64,000 nt of DNA from Macrotrachela quadricornifera (lineage: Eukaryota; Rotifera; Eurotatoria; Philodinida; Philodinidae): the NCBI GenBank assembly GCA_022393335.1, contig JAJEKB010020494.1:672906-736905 (forward strand), given 5' to 3'. Positions 9,848-63,049 of this stretch are shown here, piece after piece. The stretch's first letter is position 1; every line of letters begins with the position of its first letter. The notes beneath the pieces were generated by a model, which had not been told where the DNA came from, did no database searches, and saw nothing but the letters and a program-made list of their open reading frames with translations. The translations under genes and the position numbers were made by a program.

Positions 9848-12800
9848 ACAATCTTGAGGTGAGGGTGAGAGTATAGAGGAAGCCGTCACCACATATATAT
9901 GTATTTTTCAGTAAATGATGACTTTTTTATCTTTATTTTTTTAAGATATAAAAGGGATAGAACATGTTATGCGCCTCCTATATAATATTACCATAGCATA
10001 TATCTAATAATGACAAGATGAATTCTGTCCTGTCAGTTTGATCACCTTTTACAATTAATAATCTACGCGCAAGATTGTATGATATTAAATTACAGCAGCT
10101 CGTATTGTCTTAAATAAAATCTTTGAATAATACCACGCACCTCATTCATTATACGACGAAAATTTTCGCAATTAAAATGACCAACAAAGTAAGAATGGCA
10201 ATAACGATTTTTCTCATCAGCTTTTGTGATTTTCTACAATTCAAAAATGTGAGGAGAGAAATTAAAAGAAATCACTCACTAGAAACTTGTCACGTATAAA
10301 ATTCTTGGCTCTGATCACTTCGGTGTTTTCGAGCATGGCATGGTCTAAAAACATCACTGGAGTTATATATGTAAGAAGGGCTAAATTTGATAAGTTCATT
10401 CTATAGTAAGTGCTGATTATCACTTCACTGCAATAGTTTTGCTTTTATCGAACGAATCAAACACAATAGAACTTTTGTTGATTACTTTCGAAAGAATTCA
10501 TCAGATGAGAAACATACCTGATTGTGACATATTATCTGTTTCTACTGGTGATAAATGGTAGGAAGCAAAATCAGGAAAATAATCTTCGAGTCGACGGCCC
10601 GAATTGATTTTCTCTCTCAAAATATCTTCGCCACACAGAAACAGAATGAAAGATTTCGTATGTAGCCATCTATAAGTATAGCCATAAGAAACTTCTTGTG
10701 TATATATTCTTCGTCAAGTGATCATCCTACTTGTTGTTCCAAATACTTTGAAACAAATTAATCGATTCTTGCAATTGATTTTCATCTTCATTATAGTTAA
10801 ATCTTGTATTGAAACTACTACAGTTCGTGACATACATGATTGCAATGGCATCGCTAAAGTATTGCATCCACCTTTGTCTTTCTGATGATTGTCCAAACGG
10901 ATAAGTCACCCTCGAAAGCAAAAAATACTTTTTATCTTGCACAATATATTAATAAACATACTTAAAGCGTACTCCTTCGACGGTGAAAATTGCGTCAATC
11001 AAATTCGATTTATAATCGTAGCCACGATACATATCCTGCACGAGAAGAGTTTCAAAATGAACATATGCAAAAAGTCTTTACGACAACATTTGGATATATC
11101 TCCTGCTGTGAAATACTGGACAGTTTGAAATATTTTTCATAAAAACTCTGAGCCGTCGTTTACTGAGCTCTTGATGCTGAATATTCACATTAATAATGTA
11201 CGATCTCTATAGAAAAACTTCTGATGATATATTTTCCGAGTTTAGTGAAGATTCTTCTGTGTAATACATGAGAAAACGTTTATCTTACCGCTTCGCTAGG
11301 TATATAAGTTGGTTCTTTAATTTCGTTGATACGATCAAGAAAACTACAAACCAAAACGAAATGGGATCAAGAAGGGATTGATAAAAATACAAACTATTTG
11401 GCATTGAGTGGAAGTTGATATTCGTCAGATCGTTCAAGACATGTTTGAACACCAGCATCAGCTAAAAGAATGCATGCATGTTCAAAGAACTCAGGTGGAT
11501 AATCAAAATCAGGTTGTTGAGCTTTTGTCAACATGTAGATTGCACGCCACTGATTTTCTGGATATTCAAGTTGAATCGGTGGAACAATAATATCGAAAGC
11601 ACGTATAATGCACTAGAATTGAAATGGAACGAAATTCTTTTCATTGTAGAACTTTCAAAGATTCAAAGCTTTCTGGTGCTGCTATTAAGATAAACAGATT
11701 TAAAAGCCGTAAAAAATCGATGATTTTCGCTTAAAACCTATACACAAACCGATACAGTTTAAGCATAAAACAGGGATGACTGTTTCTTAATCATCAAAAT
11801 GAAGGTTCGTTCACAATCCTTACACTCAGAATTAATCAATTAATCCACATGATTTTGTTTTCCCGAAACACTTATCTACAAAGCACATGACGGGTATGAG
11901 CTTTTTATTGTTTATTAATAGATATTTTATTATAAACACATAGTTGTCAGATAAGACGCTCAAGAATATCTCCCAGTCGTTGATTGATCGACTAATATAA
12001 CATTAAAACTACATTCATTAACTGAAACGTTGCAGAGTTTCGACACTGATCGAAGAATAGGTTTTCTGATATAGGTACATTATCTGGCGAAATCATGATA
12101 CATAGATTGTGAACACCAATATAATGGTTGGAATTTTTGATCTGGAAAAAATCATCTTATTCTTCTTAACTTAGTCTCATTCATTATCCTTAGTTGAAGT
12201 GATACGCTATTACATTTTCGTTTCACTGAGAAATAAAAAAATCAGAATATTGAAGAAAATTTCAGACTAACGCGTAAATAAGAATGTCTTACGAAAAAGT
12301 CTATTTGACATACGTACTGTGAGAGAATCACGAATAATACGTTTGATTTCAGAGATTCTGTTGATTTTTTCTCTAGAAAAAAAGCGCTGAAAACGTCGAA
12401 ATAGAAAAAACAACACTGACTGATGCGAGTGAGGATCACCCGAAATACGCATGCAATACAACATAGACAACTTGGTTACTTCGTCGTCACCTGAAAAATA
12501 AAAAAAAAACAAGTAAATGTTGCTGCTAGTTGAAATATAGAGAAAAGCTCACCTAATACAAGAAGTCGATATGTAGACTTGTAGATCATTTCGTCTTCTT
12601 TCAATTTAGCATCAATCCGTTTGGATATTTGGTGCTCATTTTTATGTGCTCGAGAACAACTGCACAATTTTGGCATTTTTATGATGTTGTTTGCACGTGT
12701 TCTTTTTCTGCTCTCTTCGTCAACAGAATAACGATTGTATTTAACAAACGGCAGTGAGTAAGTCGTCATTTGAAACCATACATGTACATATGTGCTTCTA

Positions 12801-13842
12801 AACGAGAGCTATTAGTCTACTTACAAGCAATATTTTTTTTTGCGCCTTTAATTTTTGGCAAAATAATATCTGACTATAATAAGAAATTTCGATGTCCTGT
12901 CTTATACTCATGAAGTGCAAAAGTGACATCATGCTGCTATGAATTTTACCGATTTCCTTCATTTTTGTTTTCTTCATCTAATTCTCATTAAACTACTACA
13001 AGATTAACAATGACACTAATTGTGAGTTTTCAGATCAAAGGGGAAACATCGGATTTGGGATTCTTTAGAGTTTTGACCCTCTTTCTCCTTCTCTATGAAG
13101 TGAATACCAGGTTTTCTTTTATAAAACAGTGTTCTACCGTCTTGAGACCCAGTAATTTGACTGAATTGAAGGCACTTTTTCAATCACAAAAAAAAATATA
13201 TTTAAAGGCTTTTGGTCAATCAGGTGGTCCTAATTCACATTAAAAACGTTCTTCTACATTAAACTTTTGCCGTTTCTCGTGTTTTTCTCTGTACTGACGG
13301 TTTCACTCGCTTTTAACTGATCACTATTGAAACTTCTTAATCAATATTCACTAATACGTGATGAACAAGTATGAGTTAGTGATAGGAGTGTCACAATACC
13401 AATAACGTCAATAACAAACCATTTACTATTGAGTGGTATTTTAATTGATATTGACAAGGACTACGCCGGTTCAAAACCAAAAGCTTAGATCGTTTGTGAA
13501 AAAATTTGATTAAAAGATCGATTCTAAGAACTCATTTTTTTAGGCAGCTTCCCACAACTTCTCAATTTGTATCTAGAAATGGCTTCTCGAACTCGTCGAG
13601 TCTGCGTGGGAATGTTGTCTAGAATCTGTTGGGCTATATCTGGGGATGCTCTCTCGAAATTTTCGATTTTTGCTGGATGTCATAGAATCAATAACTATAA
13701 TAACAAAGCATTCCTCAAAATGACTGCATGTCTCTATGCACAATAATAAAAAGTGATTTCAACTATAACTTCATGATGAATTGTATTGTTTTCCACGACT
13801 TTATTTAGTACTCTTTGAGTAATCAATTTTTTTTCCTTGAGA
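9848..13842 (-). repeat. Arm A of a ~4-kb inverted duplication (partner 40353-44558)
   Basis: The reverse complement of this stretch aligns with 40353-44558 across all ten Gs-alpha-like exons, their introns and about 1.1 kb beyond the 5' end. The outer edge is near the shared ACAATCTTGAG (9848 here, 44558 there). The inner edge is near the shared GAGTAATCA and TTTTTTTTCCTTGA segments. The arms lie 26.5 kb apart. Both genes point outward, with 5' ends toward the spacer. Confidence 0.88.
10090..12769 (-). CDS. Gs-alpha-like protein with degenerate nucleotide-binding motifs, copy A (ten exons)
   Basis: Exons on the minus strand: 12769-12553, 12490-12440, 12370-12318, 11612-11395, 11343-11289, 11035-10962, 10910-10731, 10669-10518, 10344-10280, 10233-10090. 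All joins keep frame and give about 402 aa, against 394 for vertebrate Gs-alpha. A second start, MPKLCSC at 12676, would give 371 aa and put cysteines next to the N terminus, as in acylated Gs. Fold and family are clear: [52 protein letters not shown] and the C-terminal LRQYELL. But the P-loop is GDDEVTKLS instead of GAGESGKST, switch I lacks the catalytic Arg and the Mg-binding Thr (YDYKSN), DVGGQ is YPFGQ, NKQD is CGED, and TCA is VGH. It likely cannot bind or hydrolyse GTP normally, while the receptor-contact tail is intact. Function is unknown. Confidence 0.85.
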
Positions 13843-13949
13843 TATACTCAAGGTATTTAAAAACTATTTTTGTCTTTTTCATTTACGGTCTTTACAAACC
13901 GATGCAATGAAACGTACTCATCACGAGTATCATATTTTTTTTCTATCTC

Positions 13950-14665
13950 AATCGAGCGATAATAGACATGTTGGACATCTTTGAAAGGCTGAAAAATCAG
14001 TTTCTAGTCTAAAGGTTTGTTATTACCAAGTGTAAGATCGTTGGTATTACATTTTTTCAGTGTAGAAGTTTTCTCTGTATTAGAACATATAAGAAGATTT
14101 CGGAAATAGAATTCTTCTTGAGAATTTGTTCAATGAATACCATCCGATATGGAATCTTGCTATCATATGCAATGTTACAGTACGCCAGTGAATCAACGAG
14201 CTTTTTATGCATATAAAGTAGGTCGACGTGCTCTTTCTAATGAAATTATTTATAACGATGATGACCAATGTTCTGGTTATAATTATAGGCACATTCTCCC
14301 TAACTCAGAATGCCTATACAAGCGGTACAAGAGCAGTACAAACAGTGTTGAAAGTAGTTTCATTGAAAAGAGTTCGTCGAGTTATCTTTTGTACATAAAA
14401 ACCTCGTTGATTCACTGACGTAAAGTAACATTGCATGTAACAGTAAGATATCAATTGAGTGTGATATTCTCCGAATAACTTTTCAAGAAGAATCTTATCT
14501 CCGAAATCTTCTCATATATTCTGATAGAGAAAAAGATTCTGCATTGAAGAAGCCTAATACCGACGATTCATGCCCGAATATTAATGACATTTTAGACCTA
14601 AAACTGACTTTTTCATTTTTCAGACATGCCCAAGATACCTCTTATTATTTAACTAATATAAAAAT
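13950..14665. repeat. Fold-back element, ~300-bp arms and ~110-bp loop
   Basis: The left arm (about 13960-14254) and right arm (about 14360-14660) are imperfect inverted copies. Shared blocks include GTGAATCAACGAG, ATGCAATGTTAC, AGAAGATTTCGG and TTAGGTCTAAA-like segments. The short ORFs on both strands here come from the palindrome and are not genes. It sits directly beside the inner edge of arm A. Confidence 0.75.
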
Positions 14666-14679
14666 ATAAGATGATATTC

Positions 14680-15650
14680 GTGATTAGTATACTTTTTTTC
14701 TATCGATCTGTCAAAATTATAAACAGAAAAATGACGAAAACGCTTTATTGAGTACCTAAGGAATACAAGAGATCCCAGTCATAAAGAGTTCACTTTTCGC
14801 TCAATAAGAAATAAAGTCTTAGAAAATGATTCTAGTCTATCAGACTACTTTAATTAATATCAACTTTTATCTTACATAAAGTCATAGACCAATTTCCATG
14901 AATGTGTTGTTATTAGAGATAGTACCTGTACAATCACCAGTGAAAGTCAGAAAACCTGAAGATAGTAACCATAGGTAAGATCCAAAAGGTTCTAGATGCT
15001 ATTCTTGGGTAAACTCCAATACATTCTAGATAACACATACAGACAAGTTCAGCAAGATCCGGATGATATCTCATGTAGGATGCAATAAGCTCTAGACGAT
15101 GCTGAGGTAGGAACCAGCAAACCCTGAACGACACCCTTGGCAGAGATCAGTAACTTCCAGATAACCTCTACAGATAGGGACGAAAAGTTATTGGGAGCTG
15201 TTTAGAATAGATTATGAAGAGTATTCGATAAGTTCAAAGAATTGATCTGTTTAATCAAAAGCTTCCCACAAAGAGTCTAAGCGTATGATCTAGAACTGTT
15301 TCGATCCTAATCTATATTGATACGAAACAATACTAAATGGTATTGATATTGGCATTGTGACTGACGTAATAGGCATTGATTGGAGTTAAAAGTTATCTTT
15401 CGAAAAAAATGTAATTTATTATTAATAACAGTGGGATAACAATATTCTCTCACTCCTTAATATAGTAATTAGATGGTTAATAATAGAAAGATGCTATGTT
15501 TGATCAAAATTTGAATTCCTATCAATATATCATATATGTAATACTTGAAACTTGAATTCAAATATTCAACTTTGAGACGATGGGGCCAAGCTCAACAGGG
15601 ACAGCTTAGAGTGAGAGTGCGGTTTTTTGGAGAAAGGTGGGACTAAACTC
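14680..15650. other. Non-coding stretch with degenerate repeats
   Basis: From about 14937 to 15190 short blocks such as TTCTAGATG and CTCTAGACG recur imperfectly. Near 15290-15370 is a diverged copy of a segment also present inside both inverted arms (about 13390-13500 and 40715-40850) and at 17390-17470. It ends in alternating 'GGTATTGATATTG..ATTGTGAC' text. No gene was seen. Confidence 0.45.
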
Positions 15651-21334: not shown

Positions 21335-22096
21335 AAAAGTCACTTACCAAAAAAAAATCTGAATATCTCCCTTACGGTTCGAGCAAACGAACTAATTTTT
21401 TTATCAATGATAGAGGCATGTTCAAAGTTTATATCCATAAAGACATGTCTAAAGAGACGCTTTGCTAAGTAACATTATTAGTTTGAACAAAAAAAATTTT
21501 ATTTTTTCACAAATAGGAATAGGGTGAGCCAAAAGCCACCTTACCAAGAAAAAATTGAATATTTCGACTACAGCTTAACCAAACAAACTGATTTTTTTAC
21601 TCATAATAGCGGCATATTCACACTTTAAATCCATACGGACAAGGTTAGAGAAAACCTTTGTTAAGTATCACAAATGACTTCAACAAAAAAATGTTTACTT
21701 TTTCACAGATAAGAAAAAAAACCAATATGATTAACGAAGAATTTCTCTAGGCATGTCTTTATGAACCTGAAGGTTCGACATACCTCTATTATTGATAAAA
21801 GAATCAGCCCGTTTGCTCGAACTGTAATGGAGATAATCAATTTTTTCTCCGTTGTGTAATTTTTGGGCAATCTTGAAAAGTCATTTTGTCCAAAAACAAA
21901 TTGAATATGTCCTTTAGGGCTCAAGCAAACGAGCTGATTTTTTTATCAATGATAGAGGTATGTTCAAGCATCATATTGATAAAGACATGTCTAGAGGAAT
22001 CTTTTGTCAAGTATATTGTTTTTTCTTCCTATCTGTAAAAAAGTAAACGTTTTTTCGTTCAAATCAATAATGATACTTAACAAAGTGCCTCTCTAG
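21335..22096. repeat. Cluster of ~165-bp repeats in both orientations
   Basis: Units read roughly AAATTGAATATCTC...TCGAGCAAACGAACT...ATCAATGATAGAGG...AAAGACATGTCTA. Copies lie at about 21350-21515 (+), 21545-21700 (+), 21705-21875 (-) and 21895-22055 (+), with a further inverted piece running to 22096, where the hAT element begins. The same family forms the ends of the fold-back element at 48261-49313. Some units start with a GGGTGAGCCAAAAG-like terminus, as in short inverted-repeat transposons. Confidence 0.7.
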
Positions 22097-23180
22097 TAGG
22101 CATGCACCAAATCCAAACTCAAACCCAAACCGTTCGGGAGTTTGGGTTTGGTTTAATGAGTTTGTGTTTGGGTATTGAGTTTGGGTTTGGGTCTGAGCTT
22201 GAGCTAAGCAGTCAAACTTATTGTAAGATTTAAGTTTTAATCTCGGTTTGTTTGTATTGTATCCATTGTCTTTAACATTCATTTTCATCTTTCAGAACTT
22301 CACGGTCATTAACAGCAGCTTTCTATTTGAGTTTATTATTATTTGTAATTGTTGCAGCAATTGTTCCCGTTTTAGTTCATGCTTATCTTCTAAGAAAAAG
22401 ATCTAACAGTTGCAAAGAGCAATAATTATACTTATTATTTAATCTCTAAGTTGTTTCTTAGCTTGTTGATATTAGTCGACTTCTCTCTGGAAATGCTTAT
22501 ATTGAACGATAAATGTCAACTATGTATTCCTGTACCCCGGAATCAGTTAGCATTAACAAATTAAGAAACGACTTAGAGATTAAATAAGACTTCTAGCATT
22601 TTGATTTTTTTCAAAAAATCTGAAGATTTGTTTACACATAAATAGAGATGAAACTAGTGTTTGAATCATAACTTCTTATTAACACAATCGATAGAGTTCA
22701 CGTTGATGCTTGCGATCACAGTTTTTTACACTCTATTTCTGGTAAAAATTTCATGAAAAACCATCCAATTCTTGTCCGGGTATCACACATCCAGGGATTT
22801 ATGACTAGCAGTGTATTACTGTTTGTTATTTGTTTGGGTAATTCAACATTCTACCTAGTATATTCAGCCTCTACAACTGCTTCTTCTTTTTCGCTTTTTT
22901 TTCGAATTTTGCTTTCAATCCATCTTAGTCAAAATTTGTTTTTTTTTTCATATGAGAAATCTGAAAAGAATATTTTATCAGATAATACTCCGACAAAGTT
23001 ATTAAAAGATATTTTAAAATTAAGAAAATTTTATTTTTGCTATAGAGAATTCAATAGAATCAAGGGTACGACTGTTGACTATTATTTTCTGTATCTACAC
23101 TGTGAATTTGTTGGGATAATTAAGAATTAATTTAAGGATATATCTGAATTGTTCATCTTTAGCTTATAGGAACAATGTTG

Positions 23181-23345
23181 GTTCAAAGGAACATAATTGA
23201 TTAAATGCAATGTCACGGTTCAAAGGAACATTTCTCTCATATATTATATACGATGGTGACTGACGAACGATGTTGATTTAGACGATCAGAATAGAAAAAA
23301 ATGACTGAATTTAGCTTCAGAGTTCAAAGGAACATTTTTCTCTCT
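23181..23345. promoter_or_regulatory. Three copies of GTTCAAAGGAACAT upstream of the hAT transposase
   Basis: Identical 14-mers start at 23181, 23218 and 23332, the last 146 bp before the transposase ATG. The core GTTC-AAAG-GAAC is an interrupted palindrome. The array could bind a regulator or the transposase itself; the role is inference. Confidence 0.4.
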
Positions 23346-23490
23346 CTCTCGTTTGTCTCTTACTATACGAAAACAAAATTTTCGAACGATTTTTAAAGTG
23401 CAACTTGTTTTCCTTATTGCATATTAATACCGATAGATCCAATTATTTTTCTTTCTATAAAAATCAACAATAATTGTTTTTTACGTTGAA

Positions 23491-26400
23491 ATGAAAACGC
23501 GACGTCATACTACAAATTCTCATTCATCTTTATCACATATCGAAGATGTTACTATACTTTCCTCAACATCAACTGGCCAAGAACAACCAGCTACAGTATC
23601 ATCGGCTCAACAACAATCATCAACTACAGTATCATCGGTCCAACAACAACCAACTACAGACGCATCGTCTCAACAATTAACTGCAACATCAGCAACTTCA
23701 GATATTATTGAAATTGCTCCAAAATCTACTGTTTGGCAATATTTTGAACGATGTACTGAAACTGTACCTTTAAAAGCAAAATGTTTGTTATGTCAAACTG
23801 AATTATCTACACCTAATTATGGTACTTCAAGTCTTAAACGTCATTTGGAACAACGGCATAGTATAAAACAATTTGGTTCAACTAATACACCAATCATAAC
23901 TATCATTCACACGAAATTGTCAAAAACAGAAAAAAAAAATTTGGACTTATTGACTGTACAAGCAATTATTCAAGATGCTCGAAGTTATGATGATTTACGG
24001 AAACCTGGTATGAAAAAATTCATTGATGCTTTAAAAGCGGATAAGAATCTTTTCTGGTTGTTCTCTGATGAATAAGGTGATATTGAAGTAATCTCTACCA
24101 GTTCAAATCACTTTTAGAACATAGTAAACTTAGGAAAAGCTTGATCAGGTATTTAAAATAAATTGAATCAAATTGTGAGCTTCACCATCTTAAAATAAAT
24201 AAACTTTTGGCTGAACAACAATAAAAATTCATAAGGAGTATCAAAGTTTTGAGATCTAGTTTTGAAAGAACTTAAACCTAATAGGCAGACATGGGCTCTC
24301 TATAAGATAATTATTGTAAATTAAACTAAACTATGTTCTTGTAAAGATATAATTGAAATGAAATGTTTTAAAGAGATTATTTTAGTTTATGAATTCATAA
24401 CTTTCTGCTCTTGACATTCTCTAAAAATTAACGACTCCTGCTATATCGAAGCTTATATTGATAGCTTCAAAGTGATTGATACTTGTGGAAGAAAAGTCGG
24501 ATCATTAAGAATCCTAGCTTCTATCAAAAATACTAAGATTTATAAGTGGAACCACTGAAATCTATCAGAATCCAAGAAAATTAAGTAAAATAGGGATAAG
24601 TAGCCTTTACCATCTTGACAAGAAAGAAAAGACAAATATGAAAGATTAGAATCTTGGTAGATCGGAATGATTTAAGTGGATCGTAACAGACTTTGTGGTT
24701 ATGCGATCAAACAGAATCCATAGTTTCTATATTGGTTTTAGATAAGTGTAAAAGTCTGAGGCCTTTTCTACAATCTGGTAAACTTCAACTAGTTCCAATG
24801 AACTGTGTTGAATTTAAGCGAATTGTAGTAAGCATTGATAGAATACATATACTCCAATAAAACATTTTTAACGTACATCAAAATCAGTTTTCCCTGTCTT
24901 TGTTGAACCCGTAGAAAATATATTAATTATACTAAATTAATATATCAATCTCAACAAAAGAAAGTTGAATAAATAAAATTTACCCTATTTTTTATCAATC
25001 GAACAATAATAATAATACTCTTTTTTGATGACTTCCTCGAACCCAAATCCGACATAGCATAGAATTCTAAGGTTGAAAGATAATTTATTCGTAATGATTC
25101 TTTAAAACTTGATAGTTTTTTTGTTAATCTTGAAAAATGTAACGCCAACATTTTAAATCTATGCTTTCTTATAGGATACAAAACGCCACACCGAAACGTC
25201 GTTGTAAAACAATTGAAACGTCTCCATGACCATCATTCTAATCAAACAAAAATAGTATTTGAAGAAGCCAAATACTTATCTATTACTTGAGATTTCTGGA
25301 CAGATCGTAAACGTAATTCATACCTAGTTATTACCGGACATTATGTTACTAAAAAATTTGATCAATATTCGAAAATATTAAAATTTATGTCATTTAAAGA
25401 TCGTCATTTTTCACCATTGATTGCAAACGAAATTGAAAAACAATTAATTAGTTTAAAATTATATGATAAATTGATTAGCATTACCTGTGATGGTGCAGCA
25501 AACATGCGGGATATGTTTACCTATTTTAATCGTCGAAATATTAAGTATATTAATTGTATTGCTCAAACTACATTTAATTATATGCAATAGCTTAAACTTG
25601 TGGGTAACATCAAAAAAAAAGCGGAATACAACAGATGCTGAAGGAGATACTGGAACTGGTATGACTGAAGATGATGAAGATGAAACACAATCTGGTTTAA
25701 GTCAAATGGTACGAACAATGTCCTTTGATACTGCTCCATTATCCGATGATATGACCAGTTACGATAGCGACAGTGAAGATACATCAAAAGTAAGCAATGA
25801 ATTTTCATTCTTTATGGTATTAGCTTTAGAAGATTAAATATAAATCTTGTAATAGTATTTAAAAAAATCAAACGAGCGTTCAATTTGGAGAGTAAAATGT
25901 GATTCAACGGTAATCACAGATTGAAAATATTTCTTATACGAATCTTATTGTAGAACATTTATCATTGAGTAGATTATGTAGTAATGGCGTGAGAATATTA
26001 TTGAGCTTGTAGAATATTTCCAAATGATCTATTGAAAATGAAGTGTGAAGTATTGTTCATCACGTTGATTATATTTTATCTGACAATGTGTGACATAAAT
26101 ATTTTTGATCACCATCATCATTCTTCCTATAATGTATGTCCTACTTTAATATTTACCGTGTAAAACTGTTGGATATTCCCACTAGTACTCACTGTATCAT
26201 GTATATGATGGAACTTAACTATATTGTACAATGTTCGTTTTTTTTAAAGACATACGTTAAAGAGGTTATTGTGGACACTAATTTAGAGACAAAATATCCT
26301 AATAATTTTCTCATTGTATCAGTGAATGAAGTCATTTATTATCAGTAATATTGAGCAACATGAAGATAATAATAGGGAGACCGCATTGCTGTGAACAATA

Positions 26401-28833
26401 GACTTCTAATACAAATACTGTATGTGTCATATTATTGAGCAATCACTTGTACATAGAACTGATATAATTGTTCAGTTTATTTAGCTACATTCAAAAAAGC
26501 GGTTAATACTTAATGAAGTGTAAGCGCTATTAAAAAAAGACAAACCATTTGAATCAGTAAACAGTTTTAAGCTACACTTTGATTTAATTTTATTTAATTA
26601 ATAGCTATTGAATTTATAAATAATAACTGATTATTAGTCATACTAAGGACGCCCGATTTCCTACTGATATGCTTAATGAGTATTGCTCGAGTTGTGTGTG
26701 TATAAACATTTTTTATAAAAGAAAAAAAATTACAAGCGTTTTGTGATTTCAAAAAAAAAATAATACGTTCCTTATGAAATTTAAACTTTATGATAGATGT
26801 CAAGTAGAATAAGTTTTCAGTCTTACTATCGACTAATGTAATACCGCGCTACAAACTCGAGCCGTATTCTAAAACTTCAATCAGTATGAAGTCTTATATT
26901 ATTGATTTTATATTTCAGTTTTCTATCTAGGAAAATCATGATGAAGATGATAATGTCAATGATGGTTTTGAATCAAGTGGTGAATTAACTGATGTGGCAA
27001 CGGATGAAGAATGGGTGGATGAGGAAGATGGTATTGAAGAAACAACAGATAATTTTGTTGAAGGAGTTAATACTAATGAAACATCACTTGACCATATACC
27101 ACAAATGGTAAAAGACGTTATTGATAAAACACGTGAAATCGTTCGAAGAATTAAATCATCATCAATATTAACTGGATTTTTAGAAAAAAAAAGATTGATT
27201 TATAATGCACATGTTAAGATGCACAAAAAGATTAAACAACGTTTAATAATTGATGTTCGTTCACGTTGGAACAGTACTTATCGAATGCTTCATACATTTC
27301 ATATTTATCGAGATTTTATTAATGATTTATTCAAGTCAAAAGCTAGTCTCGATATTACACCTAAACAACGACGTAATTTAACTCGTATTGAATTATCAAG
27401 TAATGATTGGGATATTTTGAAATTGAGTATTAATTTGTTACATCCATTTTATAATGCAATAAAAGTATTAAGCAACAAGACATATCCAACTATTGGATCT
27501 GCATTATATCTCATGAAAGGTTTAGAAGATAATCTTAAAGAAGAAGAAGATAATGAAATTTTATTTGCTTTAAAACAGATGGTATTAGGTAAATTTGAAC
27601 GATATATTACTAATGATGTTGAACAATTTGATAATTTAAAGGTAATATAGATTAATTTAATATTTTACATGTATAATCTTGAGATTATTTTTTTAGCTAT
27701 TTTCATATTTTGATCCAACAGGTTTTTCAGCTCTTACACAAACTGAACAAAATAAAATTGAAAAAGAAATTACAAAATTGTACAAGAATTTTTTTGTGCC
27801 ATCACAACCTTCATCATCAACATCAACAAATTGTCAAACAACAAAACCAACAAATATCGATAAAGCTTGGCAAGCATTTCTTAAATCTACCAAGAAAGAT
27901 AAAATTCAAGAATCACAAACAACGTTTACCACCATTCAAGAAGATATAAAACGTTATCGAAGTCTTGCAACTAAATTGTACGTATAAGAATGTTTGATGA
28001 GGATGAAAGATCACTTGATTATGTTTCCGATAAATTAGTAACTCGTCTTGTTATGAGTGTTAATATTTATCTGATTGCGGGTGCTGCTAGTTGTCTATTT
28101 CTTGATGGATATGATCGTAATGTACTACCCTCATTTGGACATAATATTTAGCCATGGTTTTTTATTGTTAAAATTGGATTATAGTTGACTACTTTGGGTT
28201 TTTTCTTTTATTCGTAGCATCGCGTATAGTTCATACTATTCCATTCGTATGAAAAATTCAGTTTAAAAAATATTATTTTAAATCGCTTTGTTAGTGAATA
28301 TTATCTGACATAGATTTATATGAATTCGTGTAAATGACCTTATAAAACCGCTCGTAGCGACATAGATATTGCTTTTTCACAATTTGTGAAAGATTTGTAT
28401 GTATTTGTAGCAATTCTAGTACTTCAAAACAATTTTTATTAACGTCTCCCTTACCAATATGAGATACGAATATTCTTTTGTCAGCGGTAAAAGAATTGGC
28501 CTCTCAGATTAAAGAGTTATTAGAAAATTCGTTAAATTATGGACAATTTTCTAAATTAAAGTCTATATTAATTAGAGTTCAATAATATAAGATAGTTTTA
28601 TTGGGAATTTTTTCATTGATCATCAATTTGAAAATCCTATGCATTTTTGGAAACAATATGCCGTCGATCTTCCACTATTGTCTGAAATGGCACGATGTTA
28701 TTTAGCAGCTCCAGCAAGAAGCGTTCCGAGCGAATCGGCGTTCAGTATTTCTGCACATTATGGAAGAAAAGAACGCTCTCGTCTATCACCTGATAATTTG
28801 GCAATGTCAGTTTTTCTCAAAGATAAACTTTGA
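23491..28833 (+). pseudogene. hAT transposase (BED zinc finger to dimerisation domain), broken
   Basis: Piece 1 (23491-24075) has a Ser/Gln/Thr-rich N terminus, then a BED zinc finger (VWQYFE, CLLCQ, LKRHLEQRH). Piece 2 (about 25200-25590) has YLSIT, a TGA, then DFWTDRKRNSYLVITGHY, and CDGAANM, matching the hAT catalytic-core segments; the TGA at 25288 is a nonsense change. Piece 3 (26910-27650) has an acidic stretch, then RIKSSSILTGFLEKK and RSRWNSTYRMLHTF. Piece 4 (27700-27987) follows in frame order. Piece 5 (28625-28833) is the C-terminal dimerisation region with ARCYLAAPARSVPSESAFS. Gaps at 24076-25160, 25840-26900 and 27990-28620 carry no hAT match and may be insertions or introns. As it stands it is not functional. 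Confidence 0.82.
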
Positions 28834-29464
28834 AATGAAAAAAAGGATGCAACAAGAATAGTTGATATTAAATCGATCTGAAATGAAAGTTTTTCGTTTT
28901 TCTTCATGAAATTATATTTTCTGTTTGTCTATATTGAAAATAAAAGAACTCCAATTACACGTGAAAATAAATTATTATATAACAATAGATAGCAAGATTT
29001 TTCTCTCTAAATGAAATTCAGTATCGTTCAAAACGTAGGGTATTTTATGATTTAAAATTCTGAAATAGAACTATTTTTAAATAATATTTTGCCAAAATGA
29101 GTTGTTTTTTTTCTTCGAGTGTGTTGATAAACTTTCCACTTCATTAGAAATGTGATATTTTTATATAAGTTTCGAATATACATACACCAGTCTCAATTTC
29201 ATTTTTACGCGATAATATCAATCTCAATCATATAATTACACAAATTAGAATCTACGACTAAGATATTATCTACTTTAGTACTATATAGCGACTATACATA
29301 CACAAGACTGAACTCACACCCAAACCCAAACCCAAACCCAAACCTAAACCCAAACCCAAACTCTATACCCAAACCCAAACTCAATACCCAAACCCAAACC
29401 CAAACCCAAACCGTTTGGGTTTGGTGCATGCCTAGTAACAAATTTAACGAAAGCAAACTGAAGC

Positions 29465-31401
29465 AAATTTACTTGGAGAGAATCACAAAAAGAAGCATTT
29501 TTACAATTGAAACAATTGTTGGTAACTTCTCCTTTATTCTTGGATTATCCGGATGATGATCACCCTGTTATTTTGACACCAGATGCATCAAAAGTTGATG
29601 TTGGGGGGACATTACAACAACACATTAACGGGGAAATTAAGAATTTTTATTATCACACTCAAATGACATCATCCATTCAAAGAAGATATGATCCAATTGA
29701 ATTAGAAGTTTTAGCAATATGGATGTGCTTCCAACGTATGCGACCTTATCTATTAGGAAGATCAATTATTATCTATACAGATCATTGTCCATTATGTAAC
29801 ATGATGGAATCAACAGTAAAAATCGAAGAATTGATCGCATATCAATATTATTACAAGAATTCAATATTGAAAAAATTATACATATTAAAGGTCAACACAA
29901 TTGTTTAACTGACTATCTATCCCGTAATCCTGTACCGAGAGAAGAAGAAATATTTGATGAAGATTATGGTATTGCTAAACGAGCTCAAAGGGAACCAACC
30001 GTTATGGGACGTGTTCCTGGTGATAATCCTCCACTAGTTGGAGCAATTACGACAAGATCGAAAGTGAAACAGTTGCAATTAGAACAAGATCAACATTCAA
30101 CAACAACACCAACAGATAGAAATAAGACAACAGTACCACCAATAGAAGAAGAAATTGATCAAATGAAAGAAGATTCACCACAATTTTCTGCAAAGAATAT
30201 GCTGGATATAAAACAATTAAAGATCGAACAAAGAAAAGACTTGAAAATTCAACAAAAAATTACCGAAGTTATGAAAAATCCAGCAAAAGGTTCTTATGAA
30301 TTTAAAGATGGGTTATTATATAAGTTAATGATTATGCGAGAAGGCTGTAGTAAGAAGAAAAAATTTATTTATTTACCCTCATCCATGATTAATGATCTCC
30401 TACAAAATTTATCATAATGATCCTCTAAGTGACTATTTTGAAGTTCAGAGAGCATATTTGAAAATTAAAAATACATATTGGTGGCCAAACATGAAACAAG
30501 TCATCATTCAATACACACAATCATGTTTACCGTGTCAACAATATAATATTAGTAGATCGAAGAAACCCGGTCATTTACAACCGATCCCACCTCCTGATGG
30601 TCCATTCAAACGAACACCTTGTGGTAACCAATATGTATTATGTATTACAGACTATTTTACAAGATAGGTGGTTGCTGTTGCAGTACCTGATTGTTCAGCA
30701 CAAACAACAGCTGAAACACTATTTAATGAATTCATTTGCAAGTATGGGATACCAGCAGTAATATTGTCGGATCAAGGAACACATTTTTAGAATCAACTAA
30801 TGGAAGCTATGGCGAGGTTGATTGGATATGATCATACCTATTCAACTACATACCATCCTCAATCTAATGGAATGATAGAAAGATTTAACGCAACATTTGT
30901 TCCTCAAAATGCTAAACTTCAAGACAAAGAGAACAATAATTGGAATGAATTTTTGCTACCTGTAGTATTTGCATATAATACAGGAACACATGCAACAACC
31001 CAATATTCACCATTTCAATTATTATATGGTCGAGAACCAAGATTACCTACGGATGGAAAAATATCCTCATTTGCATTTCGTAAACCAAGTGATTATTATG
31101 AACAATTGAAGAAAAGTATGAAATTGATACATGAATATGCTCGTGAAAATATGCTTCGTAAACAACATCAATATAAAGTTCAATATGATAAAAAACGTCC
31201 TGATCCTCATTATGCAATAAATGATCGTGTTTTAATTAGAAGACATGGATTACAAAAAATAATTTGGAATCAATATTTTCAATTACACCACAAATTATTA
31301 TTCGTGCACAACATCCTGTTTATGTTGTTAGAGATGAAATAACTCAGGTCGAAACACAAGTGCACATGAATGATATTAGACCTATTTATATTCAAAATTA
31401 A
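29465..31401 (+). pseudogene. Ty3/gypsy pol, 5'-truncated: RT end/RNase H and integrase
   Basis: Coding begins in the reverse-transcriptase connection (FTWRESQKEAFLQLKQLL), followed by the RNase H start (LTPDASKVDVGGTL, YDPIELEVLAIW). An integrase zinc-binding region follows (NTYWWPNMK, SCLPCQQYN), then the DDE core: CITDYFTR, LSDQGTHF and HPQSNGMIERF supply the D, D, E positions. The C-terminal part ends ITQVETQVHMNDIRPIYIQN. Damage: a frame change near 29840-29900, another near 30405-30415, TAG stops at 30664 and 30787, and a frame change near 31255. The first zinc His pair is also altered (DYF where GHF is usual). The 5' half (LTR, gag, protease, most of RT) is missing at the hAT right end. 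Confidence 0.85.
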
Positions 31402-40352: not shown

Positions 40353-43300
40353 ATCACCGTCAAGGAAAAAAAACTGATTACTCACAGAATACTAAATAAA
40401 GTCGTGGAAAACAATACAATTCATTCATGAAGTTAGACTTGGAGTCACTTTTTATTATTGTGCATGGAGTCATGCACTCATTTTGAGGAATGCTTTGTTA
40501 TTATAGTTATTGACTCTATGACACGCAACAAGCATCGAAAAATTTCGAGAGAGCATCCCCAGATATAATTCAACAGATTCTAGACAACATTCTCACGTAG
40601 GACTTGACGACTTCGAGAAACCATTTCTAGATGCAAGTTACAAAATTATGGGAAGCTGCCTAAAATACATATAAGTTCTTAGGATCGATCTTCTAAACAA
40701 TTTTTCCGCGCAAAAGATCTAAACTTTTGGTTTTGAACCGGTGTAGTCCTTGTCAATATCAATACCTCAATATCAGTCAAGATCAATCCCAATATCACTC
40801 AATAGTAAATGGTTTGTTATTGACGTTATTAGTATTGTGACACTCCTATCACTAACTCATACTTGTTCACCACGTAATAGTGAGTATTGATTAAGAAGTT
40901 TCCATAGTAATCAGTTAAAGGCGAATGAAACCTTGAGTACAGAGAAAAACGCGAGAAACGGTAGAAGTTTAATGTCGTAGAACGTTTTTAATGTGAGTTA
41001 GGACCACTTGATTGACTGAAAGCCTTCAAATATATTTTTTGTTGTGATTGAAAAAGTGCCATCAATTCAGTCAAATTACTAGGTCTCAAGACGGTAGTAC
41101 ACTGTTTTATAAAAGAAAACCTGGTATTCATTTAATAGAGAAGGAGAAAGAGGGTTAAAATTCTAAAAAATTCCGAATAATCATCTCTGGATTTGAAATC
41201 TCAAATCCGATGTTTCTCCCTTTATTTGAAAACTTACAACTAGTGTTTTTGTTAATCTTTTAATAGTTAAGTGAGAATCAGATGAGAAGAACAAAAATGA
41301 AAGATATCGGTAAAATTTATAGCAGCATGATGTCACTTCTGCACTTCATGACTACAAGACAGGACGTCGAAATTTCTCATCATAGTCAGATATTATTTTG
41401 TCAAAAACTAAAAGCGCAAAAAAAATATTGCTTGTAAGTAGACTAACAGATCCCGTTTAGAGGCACATATGTACATGTATGATTTTAAATGGCGGCTCAC
41501 TCACTGCCGTTTATTAAATACAATCGTTGTTCTGTTGAGCAAGAGAGCAAAAAACGAACACGTGCAAACAACATTGTAAAAATGCCAAAATTGTGCAGTT
41601 GTTCTCGAGCACATAAAAATGAGGACCAAATATCCATACAAATTGATGCTAAGTTGAAAGAAGACGGAAGGATCTACAAGTCTACATATCGGCCTCTTGT
41701 ATTAGGTGAGCTTTTCTCTATATTTCAACTAGCAGTAACATTCACTTATTTTTTTATATTTCAGGTGACGACGAAGTAACTACATTGTCCATGATGCACT
41801 GCATGCATGTTTTCTTTAGTCCTTACTCGTATCAGTCAGTGTTGTTTTTTCTATTTCAACGTTTTCAGCGCTTCTTTCTAGAGAAAAAATCGACCGAATT
41901 TCTGAAATTAAACGTATTCTTCGTGATTCTCTCACAGTACGTATATCTAATAGACTTTCTCGTGAAACATTCTTATTTAGGCGTTAGTCTGAAACTTTCT
42001 TCAATACTCTGACTTTTTATTTCTCAGTAAAACCAAAATGTGTCAAAATATGACTTCAACCGAGGATCATTAATGAGAATAAGCGAAGAAGAACGAGATA
42101 ATAAATTGAAATCGGATGATTTTCTATAAATCAAAAATTCCAACCATCATGTTGATGTTCATGATATATGTATCATGATTTCGACACATAATGCACCTAT
42201 ATGATACAACCTATTCTTCGATTATTGTCGAAACTCTGCAACGTTTCAGTTAATGACTGTAGTTTTGATGTTATAATAGTCAGTCAATCAATGATTGAGC
42301 GATATTCTCGAGCGTCTTACTTTCTAAGTGTTCTACTTGAATTTACTTATGATTATCTGACAACTATATATTTATAAAAAAATATCTATTAATAATTAAT
42401 AAAAAGCTCCGACTCGTCATGTATTTTGCAGATAGGTGTTTTGGGAAAATAAAATCTTGTGGATTTATTGATAATTCATCACACTTTTGTGTTTGACTAG
42501 TTCGAAAGACACGATGACGACAATCATTAGTCGTCTGAGAATCATTTTCAATTCTGAATTTAAGGATTGTAGACAAACCTTCGTTTTGATGATCAAGAAG
42601 CAGTCATCCCTGTTTTATGCTTTAATTTTATCGGTTTGTCTACAAACTTTAAGTGAAAATCATCAAGTTTTTACGTCTTTTAAATCTGTTTATCTTAATA
42701 GCAGCACCAAAAATCTTTGAATTTTTGGAAGTTCTACAATGAAAAGAATTTCGTTCCATCTTAATTTTAGTGCATTATACGTGCCTTGGATGTTATTGTT
42801 CCACCGATTCAACTTGAATATCCAGAAAATCAGTGGCGTGCAATCTACATGTTGACAAAAGCTCAACAACCTGATTTTGATTATCCACCTGAGTTCTTTG
42901 AACATGCATGCATTCTTTTAGCTGATGCTGGTGTTCAAAAATGTCTTGAACGATCTGATGAATATGAACTTCCACTCAATGCCAAATAGTTAGTATTTTT
43001 ATCAATCCCTTCTTGATCCCATTTCGTTTTGGTTTGTAGTTTTCTCGATCGTATCCACAAAATTAAAGAGCCAACTTACATACCTAGCGAAGCGGTAAGA
43101 TAAACGTTTTCTCATGTATTACAAAGAAGAATCTTCACTAAACTCGGAAAATATATCATCAGAAGTTTTTCTATAGAGATCGTACATTATTAATGTGAAT
43201 ATTCAGCATCAAGAGCTCAGTAAACGACGGCTCAGAGTTTTTATGAAAAATATTTCAAACTGTCCAGTATTTCACAGCAGGAGAAATATCCAAATGTTGT

Positions 43301-44558
43301 CGTAAAGACTTTTTGCACGTGTTCATTTTGAAACTCTTCTCGTGCAGGATATGTATCATGGCTATGATTATAAATCGAATTTGATTGACGCAATTTTCAC
43401 CGTAGAAGGAGTACACTTTAAGTATGTTTATTAATATATTGTGCAAGATAAAAAGTATTTTTTGCTTTCGAGGGTGACTTATCCGTTTGGACAATCATCA
43501 GAAAGACAAAGGTGGATGCAATACTTTAGCGATGCCATTGCAATCATGTATGTCACGAACTGTAGTAGTTTCAATACAAGATTTAACTATAATGAAGATG
43601 AAAATCAACTGCAAGAATCGATTAATTTGTTTCAAAGTATTTGGAACAACAAGTAGGATGATCACTTGACGAAGAATATATACACAAGAAGTTTCTTATG
43701 ACTATATTTATAGATGGCTACATACAAAATCTTTCATTTTGTTTCTGTATGACGAAGATATTTTAAGAGAGAAAATCAATTCTGGTCATCGACTCGAAGA
43801 TTATTTTCCTGACTTTGCTTGCTATCATTTACCACCAGTAGAAACAGATAATACGTTACAATTAGGTATATTTCTCATTTGATAGATTCTTTTGAAAGGA
43901 ATCAATAAAAGCTCTATTACGTTTGATTAGTTTGATAAAAGCAAAAATATTTCAGCGAAATAATAATCGATACTTACTATAGAATGAACTTATCAAGTTT
44001 AGCTATTCTTACACAAATGACTCTATTGATGTTTTTAGACCATCTCATGTTCGAAAACACCGAAGTGTCCAGAGCCAAGTGTTTTATACGTGACCAGTTT
44101 CTAGTGAGTGATTTCTTTTGATTTTTCTTCTAGTATTCATGAATTGTAGAAAATCACAACAGCTGACGAGAAGAATCGTTATTGTTATCCTTTCTTTGTT
44201 AGTCATATTGATTCCGAACAGTTGCGTCGTATGTTCAACGACGTGCGTGATATAATTCAAACATTACATTTAAGACAATACGAGCTGCTGTAATTTAATA
44301 TCATACAATCTTGCGCGTAGATGATTAATCGCAAAAGGTGATCAAACTGAAAGGACAGACTTCATCCTGTCATCATTAGATACGTGCTATGGTAATATTA
44401 TATGGGAGGTACATAACATGTTCTCTCCTTTATAACGAAGTATACAGATAAATGAGCCTTCTTATATCTAAAAAAATAAAGATAAATGAGTCATTATTTA
44501 CTGGAAAATACACACATTGAGTAACGGCTCTCTCAGGACTCTCACCCTCAAGATTGTG
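40353..44558 (+). repeat. Arm B of the ~4-kb inverted duplication (partner 9848-13842)
   Basis: Homologous in inverted orientation to arm A over its full length, exons and introns alike. Similarity is uneven: about one mismatch over 235 bp around exon 7 and its upstream intron, but about 24 mismatches in the 144-bp last exon. The sequence just outside either end of the two arms is unrelated. Confidence 0.88.
41489..44293 (+). CDS. Gs-alpha-like protein with degenerate nucleotide-binding motifs, copy B (exon 2 donor lost)
   Basis: Exons: 41489-41705, 41765-about 41815, 41884-41936, 42771-42988, 43040-43094, 43348-43421, 43473-43652, 43714-43865, 44039-44103, 44150-44293. Every exon is open and matches copy A. 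Motif state: P-loop GDDEVTTLS (the Lys kept in copy A is Thr here), switch I YDYKSN, YPFGQ for DVGGQ, YDED for NKQD, VSH for TCA; the C terminus LRQYELL is intact. The GT donor used after exon 2 in copy A (GGGTGATC) reads TTTAGTCC here, so exon 2-3 joining should fail or shift. The alternative start MPKLCSC lies at 41582. It may be a pseudogene or give an altered transcript. Confidence 0.75.
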
Positions 44559-48260: not shown

Positions 48261-49313
48261 AGAGTGAACCATAAATATCTTTACGATAAAAAATTTGAAT
48301 ATCTTCATTGTAGCTCGAACAAATGAGCTGATTTTTTAATCAATGATACAGACATATTCAAGGTTTATATCAGTAAAGACATATATAGAGAGATCCTTTT
48401 GCAAGTATCGTTATCGGTCTCAACAAAAAAATTTTACTTTTTTACAAATTAGAAAAAAAATAATGTACTTAACTTGAAGGCTGCTATTATGTGAATTTGC
48501 TACACTAAGTATCCTGATCTCAACTATGAAACAATTATCTACTGAAGCCTGTCCACTGAGAATCTATAGTCAAAACATTTTCTCACCATATGATAAGGTG
48601 ACAGTAATGCAAAATTCTAGTGCCTTTTATTTTTCCTTTAAACATGTATTTCTGGATTCAGTTTTTGACGCTGATGATGAATATCTTGTTATGTTTTCAA
48701 TTTAACAAAGTCTTCGTGGAGAAAAATGCAAAATACTGGGAAAATGTCAAAAATTGCAAAAAATGCTAACTTTTCTAAATGAACATGTAGTATGTGATAA
48801 AGTTATAAAAAACGTTTCTAAATACAATTTTACATAATAAATTCAAAAATCATATTGATAAAAACGAAAAGTAAAATAGTGATGGATTGAATGTTGCTTT
48901 TCTATAAGTAAGCATTTATTGAAATTTTTGACATGTTTCTCTATGAAGACTTTGTTAAATTGAAAAAATAACAAGTTAGTCGTGATCAGCGTCAAAAACA
49001 GAATCTAGAAATACATGTTTAAAAGAAAAATAAGAGATACTAGAATTTTGCATTACTGTCACCTTATCATATGATGAGAAAATGTTTTGACTATAGATTC
49101 TCAGTGAACATGCTTCAGCAGATAATTGTTTCATAGTTGAGATCAAGACACTTAGTGCAGCAAATCCACATAATATCACTCTTCCCTTGCAAGCATATCT
49201 TCATGAATATAAATCCTAAATATGTTTCGATCATTAATTAAAAACTAGGCTCATTTGCTTGAGTCGTAATAAAAATATTCAAATTTTTTATTGTAAAGAT
49301 ATTTATGGCTTAT
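48261..49313. repeat. 1-kb fold-back element with an open frame in each arm
   Basis: Left arm about 48261-48720, right arm about 48940-49313, inverted relative to each other. The outer 200 bp belong to the repeat family clustered at 21335-22096 (CATAAATATCTTTAC, then ATTTGAATATC and the TCGAACAAATGAGC-like block). Inside, both arms encode the same peptide: the left arm (+, about 48493-48704) and the right arm (-, 49179-48976) both read ISTMKQLS, then RIYSQNIFS, YDKVTVMQNSS and FKHVFLDSVFDAD. Confidence 0.75.
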
Positions 49314-50846: not shown

Positions 50847-53800
50847 TTGATAAATGATATGGTACTTCGATGGGTGCTATTCGGTTTCATCTTGAGTTTA
50901 TGTGGATCGTTTATTCAAGCAGGACCTTATGATTGGATACTCTATTCGGAAGATGAAAAGAATGTTCAATGTTTACTATATGATCATCGGTATTTCTGTC
51001 ATTCGACATTCGATAAATTTCTATTGAAACAAACAAATATTTCATGTACTAATGGCATTCTATGGCCTTTTTCAAAATTAAAATAGAATAATATAGCCAC
51101 TGATGAACTGATCAATTGGTTTATTCCATTTGATATTATTGAACAGTATGCAAGTTATTTGAATTCTAGTTCTTTTATATCGAATGGTAATACTACCATT
51201 TGCAATTGCACTGAAAATCGAATTGGTGCAGAATGTGAATATAAACTAATATCTGATTCATCAAATATTGGTCAAATAATCGTAAATCAAATGCATGATT
51301 ATGGTGCACGTGATGAAGAAATAGCAACTTCTCTTAACGATGATATAGAATGTGATGCAAGCGGTCTTACCTTGGAATGGCGACAAGTGTGTGATGGAAT
51401 CATCCATTGTCAAAATGGAGCTGATGAGCTCAACTGTCAGTTATTAGAATTTAATAAATGCAATCAAGATGAATATCAATGTCGAAATGGAATGTGTATT
51501 CCGAAGGAATTTGTATTTGATGCTTTTCCCGATTGTATGGATTCGAGTGACGAACAAGAAATAGATGATATCTATGAACGATATAACAGATGTCCGAAAA
51601 AATCAGCAATCGAATGTGATGAACGTCTTTGTCGCAAAGATCAATTTTTATGTGGTGATGGACAATGTGTTAGTTGGTCAAGTGTTATTGATCACCTTGA
51701 TCGTTGTGCAAATTTGCGCAATGCAGCTTATTTATGTGAGACAGTTGATTTTTTAGTAAACACTGGCTTGGTGTTTAATGGTATTTGTCTCCAAACACGT
51801 TCACCACTTCCTCAATTAACAAATACATCAAGTTGTGTAGTCAGTCTTCGTCATATGTTACTTGCAAGTCAAAGTAAACAACCGAATATAATTCGAGAAA
51901 TTTCATTGAATAATATTATTGATCGTTGTCCAGAATTAATTCAATATCCAGAACGACCTGTTCTCTCTCCAATACTCAAAATGTTCTATAATAAATCATG
52001 GATTGTAAAATTTTACAAACAACGACAAAATTTTCATCATCAAATGCCAAGACGACCTTATCTTATATGTCTAAGTGGTTCAATGATGTGCAATGGAATC
52101 TTGATGACTCTTCGACAAGACGATTGTATGTCACACGATGTCTTCAAAACATTAGCTTCCTTTCCATTCTATCCGATACCTCATTTATTCTGTCAAGTGG
52201 CAGCAAAACAAGCAGCGTTTGAAAGGTTAATTATATCCCTTTTGAAAAATTTCAGAACTAGAAATATAGTCAGAATCTAGATGCTGACGAGGAAATTCCC
52301 AGAAGTGATTCATCACTTTTTAGTCTTAGACTATATTCAATGAATAGTGCCTAGTGAGAGTAGGAAAATATCTTAAAGGAATTATTTGTATCGACTTTTA
52401 TTACTGATATATTGAATATTTGACCTGTTTGTCAGCGGAATACTTTCGATTTGAAATTCCGGAATTTAACTGTAAGGGATATTGCATAGCATTAGTCGAA
52501 ATACAAAGTTTCATAATTTTTAAGATTATCGATACAGAAATATAAATGAACAAAACAATTGAATCTCTTAAAGATTCAACCGATAAGAGAGACGTTTCTC
52601 TTTTAAAACTCATAACACTACAACAATGGTTTCATAATTCTGAAACTTCGTATTTTGAGTACCACTGTGAAGAATTATTTGCAGTTAAATTTTCAAAGTC
52701 CGATACACGTCGAAAAACAGTTTAAATATTCTATATCTCAACAATACAACTTTTTCCACTTTTTTAATATTGCAGTACTACTACTTTGTTGCCATCATCA
52801 TCATTCTTTACATGTCCGAATTCGTTATCAGATCATCTTGCATTTCGTCGTGTCAATGATGGTTATCACGATTGCCTTTACGGTGAAGATGAAAAGAATA
52901 ATGATTATAAAATGAATGAACCCTATCGATATCGATGCCAGACAGTATCATTGCCAGTCCAGTATGTGAGCTTTCAACGATTGGGTAACGGAAAAAGAGA
53001 ATGTGCGGATGGAAGTGATGAACTCTCGTATGAACTCCATTGGCCCTTTTCCAAATGTAATTATAACGATACTTATGCTTGTTGGGTATTTCAAGATGAT
53101 GGAATCATCAACAATCGAATAAAAGATGTTCGATTGCTCTTTCATCGATATTGTGATACAGTTTGGGATACAATTGATGGTCGAGATGAGCAAAATTGTT
53201 CTCATTGGATTTGTGGACATGATATGTATCAATGTAACAAAACTGGTCAGTGTATTCACAGAACACGTTTTTGTGATGGAGAGTTCGATTGTGATGATGG
53301 TGAAGATGAACTGAGTTGTCCAACACGACCACGACAATGGCATCTTGAATTTGAATGCAATAAGACTCATGAACACTTTTGTATTACTTCACAATATCTG
53401 CAAAATCGCACACTTAATCGTCCACGTATTCCTTATAGTCAAGCCGGTGATGGACAAATTGATTGTATAGGAGGTCGTGATGAGCGTAATGTATTCTCTT
53501 GCTCAGATCATCTGATGTTAGGTGATCGATTTCTCTGTGATAATCAAACAAAATGTCTCAATTATACTGTTCTATGCGATGGAATAGATGATTGTTTGGA
53601 TAGAACAGATGAACTTATTTGTTTTTGGGATCGTACAAAATGTGCTGTGGGACAATTCGCTTGTTCCGATGGAAGAGGATGCAAAAAACATCGATGCGAT
53701 CCAAAAGAGCTTTGTTCAAACAGAGCAAATTGGTTTTGGTGTCCAAATTCGACAGCAGCTGCAACTCTTTATCGTCCCACCAAATATCGGCGTCTATCAA

Positions 53801-62998: not shown

Positions 62999-63049
62999 TT
63001 CATCAAAAAAATTGCATGACTTCACTTCTCTCAAAAGTCACCAAAGTCA

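Follow-up and report, generated by a model that had tools for sequence, protein, structure and literature searches.

A family of Gs-alpha paralogues with broken G boxes and open reading frames in a bdelloid rotifer: candidate pseudo-GTPases

Precedents have been published for G-alpha proteins that act without a normal GTP switch. The plant XLGs are described as G-alpha relatives that work with Gbeta-gamma independently of nucleotide (PMC8584482). Several nucleotide-defective G-alpha mutants are reported to couple dominantly to receptors; among them, Gao K46E forms a stable inactive complex with D2R and Gbeta-gamma, and dominant G-alpha mutants also sequester Ric-8 (PMC12423288). One dominant-negative version of Gs is described as carrying A366S (PMC7435274). 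Pseudo-GTPases that bind no nucleotide are defined as class I, for which the S. pombe septin Spn7 is a proposed example (PMC10731463). Dominant-negative G-alpha serves as a tool in the laboratory and is a mechanism of disease. No animal G-alpha pseudo-GTPase was found among the matches listed, a minority of all, in keyword searches of the open-licence PMC literature; one may already be in print. The genes described here would be pseudo-GTPases, a known kind of protein, in this case in an animal heterotrimeric G-alpha.

The window, which is the whole stretch of 64,000 nucleotides analysed here, comes from the bdelloid Macrotrachela quadricornifera. The genome carries at least four genes of this family, copies A and B in the window and copies C and D on a homologous contig, C898. 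Whole-gene alignment showed that each copy had 1137 nt of coding sequence in ten exons, with all introns GT-AG and no indel or internal stop, and the four had in common the G3 sequence YPFGQ and the terminal LRQYELL. The genome (450 Mb, 5695 contigs) was searched with the PF00503 profile alone and 121 of the 136 candidates were scored, so more copies may exist. BLAST of the window against itself revealed an inverted duplication, the arms of which paired in two blocks (90.4% and 83.7% identical):

9860..13840, strand not assigned, duplication arm with copy A
40360..44550, strand not assigned, duplication arm with copy B
41582..44293, plus strand, copy B, the inverted duplicate of copy A, intact with ten exons and 1137 nt

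Copy B, a second intact copy in the window that was absent from the earlier note, shared 322 of 378 residues with copy A and also had five broken G boxes. In reverse orientation, contig C898 followed the same order as the window, and outside the duplicated arms its blocks were 92-98% identical to it; a matching exon 7 lay at 434 kb (copy C) and a related exon 7 at 314 kb (copy D). Copies A and C occupied corresponding places and looked like alleles (dS 0.055), and B and D, at the other corresponding place, were more divergent (dS 0.20). The interval between the two places was about 7 kb in the window (22097-29463) and about 79 kb in C898 (344.6-423.5 kb). The possibility that copy A alone had degraded, raised at the outset, did not hold within this genome, as all four members carried G-box losses and open frames.

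The earlier note had described an uninterrupted ten-exon Gs-alpha-like gene, and this was borne out for copy A, which lay on the minus strand at window 10090-12676 (ATG at 12676, stop at 10090) and encoded 378 aa in 1137 nt without internal stops, frameshifts or indels. All nine introns were GT-AG, with lengths of 46-705 bases. The exons were as follows:

12553..12676, minus strand, exon 1, MPKL start, alpha-N region, ending in YRLLVLG
12421..12490, minus strand, exon 2, broken P-loop with GDDEVTKLS replacing GAGESGKST
12318..12372, minus strand, exon 3, start of the helical domain
11395..11612, minus strand, exon 4, helical domain with YPPEFFEHA retained
11289..11343, minus strand, exon 5
10962..11035, minus strand, exon 6, switch I YRGYDYK without R201 and T204
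10731..10910, minus strand, exon 7, G3 YPFGQ replacing DVGGQ, switch II helix, IWNNK
10518..10669, minus strand, exon 8, G4 CGED replacing NKQD
10280..10344, minus strand, exon 9, RAKNFIRDKFL
10090..10233, minus strand, exon 10, G5 VGH replacing TCA, alpha-5 helix, LRQYELL end

A second in-frame ATG upstream, at 12769, could add 31 residues and coincides with the end of the span given earlier; the matching codon of copy D was GTG, and a similar upstream extension was present in the canonical Gs genes L013, L015, and L016 of the same genome. The Pfam G-alpha profile PF00503 matched residues 16-367 of copy A at 1.1e-63, and a PDB sequence search returned 9m55_A, a G-protein alpha subunit, as the best chain, followed mostly by Gs-alpha chains. 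This full-length G-alpha homology places copy A in the Gs-alpha family. An open stretch in intron 3 of copy A was considered as an extra exon and rejected, since it contained stops in B and C, as expected of unconstrained sequence, though D was open throughout. The gene models of the four copies were built by hand and script from genomic DNA alone, and the introns were predicted by hand with no RNA, which would leave room for an assembly or gene-model artefact. Such an artefact is scarcely credible, as the same model was obtained from four copies on two contigs and the canonical Gs of this genome shares the ten exons and their phases.

The canonical Gs genes are L013 and a pair, L015 and L016, that are nearly identical to each other; each gene encodes 378 residues with all boxes intact and the LRQYELL end, in ten exons with the same phases as in copies A-D. 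Copies A-D were 54-58% identical to canonical bdelloid Gs (copy A, 54-56%). The shared ten exons and phases indicate a duplicate made at the DNA level and not a retrocopy. A tree of 20 sequences, which left out three long or partial ones (Hypsibius, P0040, and the partial P0007), separated 13 (copies A-D, a second degenerate lineage E1/E2, and bdelloid Gs) from seven other animals with 100/100 support, and did not settle where A-D branch among the bdelloid Gs. In a tree of 23 sequences, A-D stood beside L013, P0001, and P0002 with support of 92/79. From its sequence, copy A is thus placed as a bdelloid Gs-alpha paralogue by descent. The dS between A-D and canonical Gs was 1.0-1.5, compared with 0.62 between the two canonical types; the split therefore looks old, with values near saturation. 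The canonical bdelloid proteins started with MPKLWSC or MPKLLSC and the four copies with MPKLCSC, unlike other animal Gs (P0005, P0006, P0010, and P0014), which started with MGC, so the lipid anchor may differ. Third-position GC was 0.30-0.32 in copies A-D and 0.12-0.21 in L013, L015, and L016.

Alignment with canonical Gs revealed the changes in the nucleotide site. The human Gs residue numbers used here (K53, R201, T204, Q227, D295, A366, and so on) are our assignment to these positions, and which residues contact what in the Gs-alpha-like protein is likewise assumed. In copy A, GAGESGKST of the P-loop had become GDDEVTKLS, LRCRVLT of switch I had become YRGYDYK (R201Y, T204K), and DVGGQ, NKQD, and TCA had become YPFGQ, CGED, and VGH, respectively. 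Residues G52, S54, R201, T204, D223, N292, K293, and A366 were lost in all four copies, with His or Asn at the A366 position. The claim that all five motifs were replaced stood in the sense that each box was broken as a motif, but 7 of the 28 box residues survived in copy A (G47, E50, K53, one switch I Arg, G226, Q227, and D295). None of the four copies had the five intact G boxes of a functional Gs-alpha GTPase. Twelve canonical Gs proteins agreed at 214 positions; of these, copies A-D kept 5-7 of the 27 G-box sites, compared with 113-121 of the 176 sites outside the G boxes and the tail, and the deficit was significant in each copy (Fisher p 2.5e-4 to 9.9e-6). This comparison showed that the predicted nucleotide-site positions were lost preferentially and not at random. 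Loss of several pocket residues in an otherwise conserved fold likens A-D to class I pseudo-GTPases such as Spn7, as they are described in PMC10731463, and to the pseudo-GTPase domains of p190RhoGAP (PMC5593906); unlike A-D, these are no heterotrimeric G-alpha and have no receptor coupling.

Reading copies A-D as pseudo-GTPases agrees with the broken boxes, the omega below 1 and the four open frames. G226, Q227, and D295 remain in all four copies and K53 in three. These survivors would suit a rebuilt pocket that still binds nucleotide (a class II or III pseudo-GTPase, or one of changed specificity), and septin pseudo-GTPases are described as having altered pockets that hold nucleotide (PMC10731463). 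A rebuilt pocket is nevertheless improbable, given the eight residues gone from every copy and the continuing variation among copies at three of the four G4 sites and two of the three G5 sites. Across all boxes, A-D varied among themselves at 11 of 28 positions, compared with 82 of the 345 outside them (p 0.07). Copy A would probably belong to class I and is predicted to bind no nucleotide.

The terminal LRQYELL was reported earlier as kept, and the alignment agreed: it was the same as in canonical Gs in all four copies, so the receptor-contacting C-terminus on which a receptor decoy would depend is present. Of the last eleven invariant residues, A, B, and C each kept nine and D kept all eleven. 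The excess over background was not significant for A, B, and C (p 0.33-0.34, against 113-114 of 176) and reached p 0.035 for D; the receptor-contact tail of the first three is intact but not significantly more conserved than the rest of the protein. The alpha-5 stretch kept 17-21 of 26 sites, the switch II helix 6 of 11, and the alpha3-beta5 stretch 5-7 of 9. The ordinary conservation of the tail in A, B, and C and the partly kept switch II and alpha3-beta5 regions would fit a maintained pseudo-GTPase with a job other than that of a receptor decoy, as a nucleotide-independent adaptor or a chaperone sink (for Ric-8B, a Gbeta-gamma scaffold or adenylyl cyclase). Precedents have been described in the severe Gao variants that sequester Ric-8A/B (PMC12423288) and in the use of Gbeta-gamma by XLGs without nucleotide (PMC8584482). 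Such a job is possible, if somewhat less likely than a decoy role, and against it stands that the last seven residues were the same in all four copies, whereas E1 kept only two of the seven.

Selection on the copies was estimated in several ways. By NG86, omega for the six A-D pairs was 0.33-0.54, with upper limits of 0.505-0.856 (200 bootstraps), and that for the canonical pair L013-L015 was 0.13; a free fit in IQ-TREE gave 0.496 for A-D. Codon likelihood with our own implementation (separate omegas, 373 codons) gave 0.405 for the A-D crown and 0.055 for canonical Gs, which differs from A-D in this as in keeping its five G boxes. Omega = 1 was rejected for the crown (2dlnL 29.0, p 7e-8) and likewise, at p 1.5e-5, for the A/C locus, where omega was 0.254; the stem gave 0.095, on a saturated branch. 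On the main topology, a model with more omegas could not distinguish B (0.75) or D, taken singly, from 1. On an alternative topology, which fitted worse by 16 log units, omega = 1 was rejected too for the crown (2dlnL 29.4) and for the A/C tips (0.27, p 0.001) and the B/D tips (0.48, p 0.0005). The results showed that copies A-D are under real but relaxed purifying selection. A dN/dS near 1, which had been named as evidence against a maintained gene, was not observed, the values being 0.40 for the family and 0.25 for the A/C locus, from copies within one genome.

A slowly decaying family, in which relic constraint in recent copies, chance and gene conversion have kept the frames open, would account for several of these features. 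The omega of 0.40 is about seven times that of canonical Gs (0.055), and B and D could not be separated from 1 on one topology. Raw divergence was close in exons (0.026-0.119) and introns (0.041-0.129), and exons even exceeded introns in the A-D pair (0.094 versus 0.085) and the C-D pair (0.101 versus 0.085). Copies A and B differed by 1 base of 180 in exon 7, by 4 of 253 in intron 5 and by none of 51 in intron 6, compared with 10-25% in their other parts, a patchiness such as gene conversion would give, and no orthologues were present among the matches listed for other bdelloids. Decay is nonetheless unlikely. Both topologies rejected omega = 1 for the crown and for A/C, the alternative one did so for the B/D tips as well, and the G-box sites were lost preferentially. 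No exon indel was found in any of the six pairs, against 3-13 intron indels per pair. Neutral simulation of L013 to 56% identity introduced 9.2 stops on average and never fewer than 3 in 300 runs. Simulation over the A-D tree produced a mean of 13.1 stops and no stop-free run in 2000, with branch lengths set by hand from the dS table and starting at D; intron-based lengths would give fewer stops. As a family, A-D showed none of the marks of a pseudogene (frame disruption, an intronless copy or omega about 1), B and D being singly indistinguishable from 1 in one model. The earlier argument that motif loss without frame loss speaks against simple decay is therefore supported by omega below 1 and four open frames. 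Copies A-D are very probably a maintained pseudo-GTPase family and not a decaying one.

Counterparts were sought in other bdelloids. A search with the copy A protein matched 46 proteins, and the bdelloid ones found were canonical Gs. A profile of D, A, and E1 gave 843 matches, of which the best 120 were at most 57% identical to D; the best matches listed were Gs of Rotaria sordida, R. magnacalcarata, Rotaria sp. Silwood1, Adineta steineri, A. ricciae, and Didymodactylos carnosus. Exon 7 of copy A alone gave no candidate in the protein database. No A-D orthologue in another bdelloid genus was thus present among the 46 matches, the best 120 of 843 or the exon 7 search, and the same motif changes, which the earlier note had proposed to look for in bdelloid proteomes, did not recur among the database proteins listed. 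Under strict motif patterns, all five boxes were present in 121 of the 143 proteins fetched, and the remaining 22 were without one to three; none was without four or five, and several of the 22 were short models and some were only pattern variants, such as P0039 with GTKESGKT and DVAGQ. The canonical bdelloid Gs P0001 (385 aa) is on a contig of 1503 bases, too short for introns, so bdelloid transcripts are apparently in the database and the absence of the family is mildly informative. The apparently intronless bdelloid contigs there included canonical Gs and no gene of the A-D family, so that no transcript of the family turned up in these searches, and this absence counts mildly against a working gene. 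That no orthologue was found among the proteins listed for other bdelloids, despite an apparently old split, also counts against the explanation preferred below.

A second degenerate Gs-like lineage, E1/E2, was found in the same genome as an open frame of 371 residues on L011 (3225-5171, minus strand) and L012, two contigs that were 95.7% identical over 7 kb. Its P-loop was GDDECGKT and NKQD was kept, G3 and G5 were broken (the alignment at G2/G3 is uncertain), and the C-terminal end was altered to LQQHIPSI or LQQYIPSI. NG86 omega between E1 and E2 was 0.25, from 14 differences. A single degenerate clade of A-D and E1/E2 was neither supported nor rejected (p-AU 0.48). With NKQD kept and the tail lost, E1/E2 suggests that Gs has been degraded in two different ways in one genome. 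Another degenerate G-alpha paralogue, L019 (C4511, about 94-95 kb), had the P-loop IDTEEYGKST and DASGQ for DVGGQ; it resembled a gene on L014 and L003, presumably Gq-like, whose boxes are present.

The explanation that we prefer, with a probability of roughly 0.45, is that copies A-D are a maintained nucleotide-free Gs family that occupies a partner of normal Gs. A canonical Gs gene would have been duplicated at the DNA level to give the ancestor of A-D, which would then have lost its nucleotide site and been retained for long under relaxed purifying selection. The protein, presumably unable to cycle GTP, would act independently of nucleotide by occupying that partner, most likely an activated Gs-coupled receptor, alone or together with Gbeta-gamma, and the occupancy would damp cAMP signalling or set its threshold, as a dominant-negative G-alpha does. 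A decoy role would be plausible; given a maintained pseudo-GTPase, a receptor or Gbeta-gamma decoy has about an even chance, and in a functional gene it stands at near-even odds with other nucleotide-independent roles, with the decoy favoured. Against this explanation, a G-alpha might lose its stability when no nucleotide is bound. The P-loop Lys changed in Gao K46E, which we take to be equivalent to K53 here, was kept in A, C, and D and was Thr in B, so that the parallel is only partial. Dominant-negative Gs, Gao, and Gai3 mutants, as described in PMC12423288 and PMC7435274, resemble the proposed role in combining impaired nucleotide handling with receptor coupling, and A366 is changed in A-D as in one such Gs version (PMC7435274). 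Those mutants are engineered or pathogenic, whereas A-D are members of a gene family that selection has retained. The XLGs differ in having an extensive extra N-terminal domain and a plant G-alpha origin, whereas A-D are Gs-sized and Gs-derived. Copies A-D are candidates for proteins that naturally block hormone-receptor signalling or act in it as adaptors. A Gs-alpha that occurs naturally, is under selection and lacks a GTP site would point to an animal use of the G-alpha fold without the GTP switch, in parallel with the XLGs of plants, and would make it straightforward to test what G-alpha can do in a nucleotide-free state. We raise only tentatively that bdelloids may possess, in a selected family of nucleotide-free Gs-alpha proteins beside normal Gs, an inherent branch of receptor signalling that is dominant-negative or independent of nucleotide.

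Other features were observed in the window. Open frames with LDLa repeats (PF00057) lay at 51087-52277 and 52768-56214 on the plus strand, and the latter also had a 7tm_1 receptor domain (PF00001); both frames share the window with copies A and B. Three segments of 0.4-0.8 kb (48476-49184, 21656-22085, and 13915-14689) were self-palindromic, with 70-79% identity to their own reverse complements, and at 63042-63591 there was a tandem repeat whose units, 86-90% alike, recurred about every 70 bases. Probable remains of a retroelement were present at 29462-31339 on the plus strand, where the frame 30791-31339 gave a weak integrase match (rve_3) below the curated cut-off.
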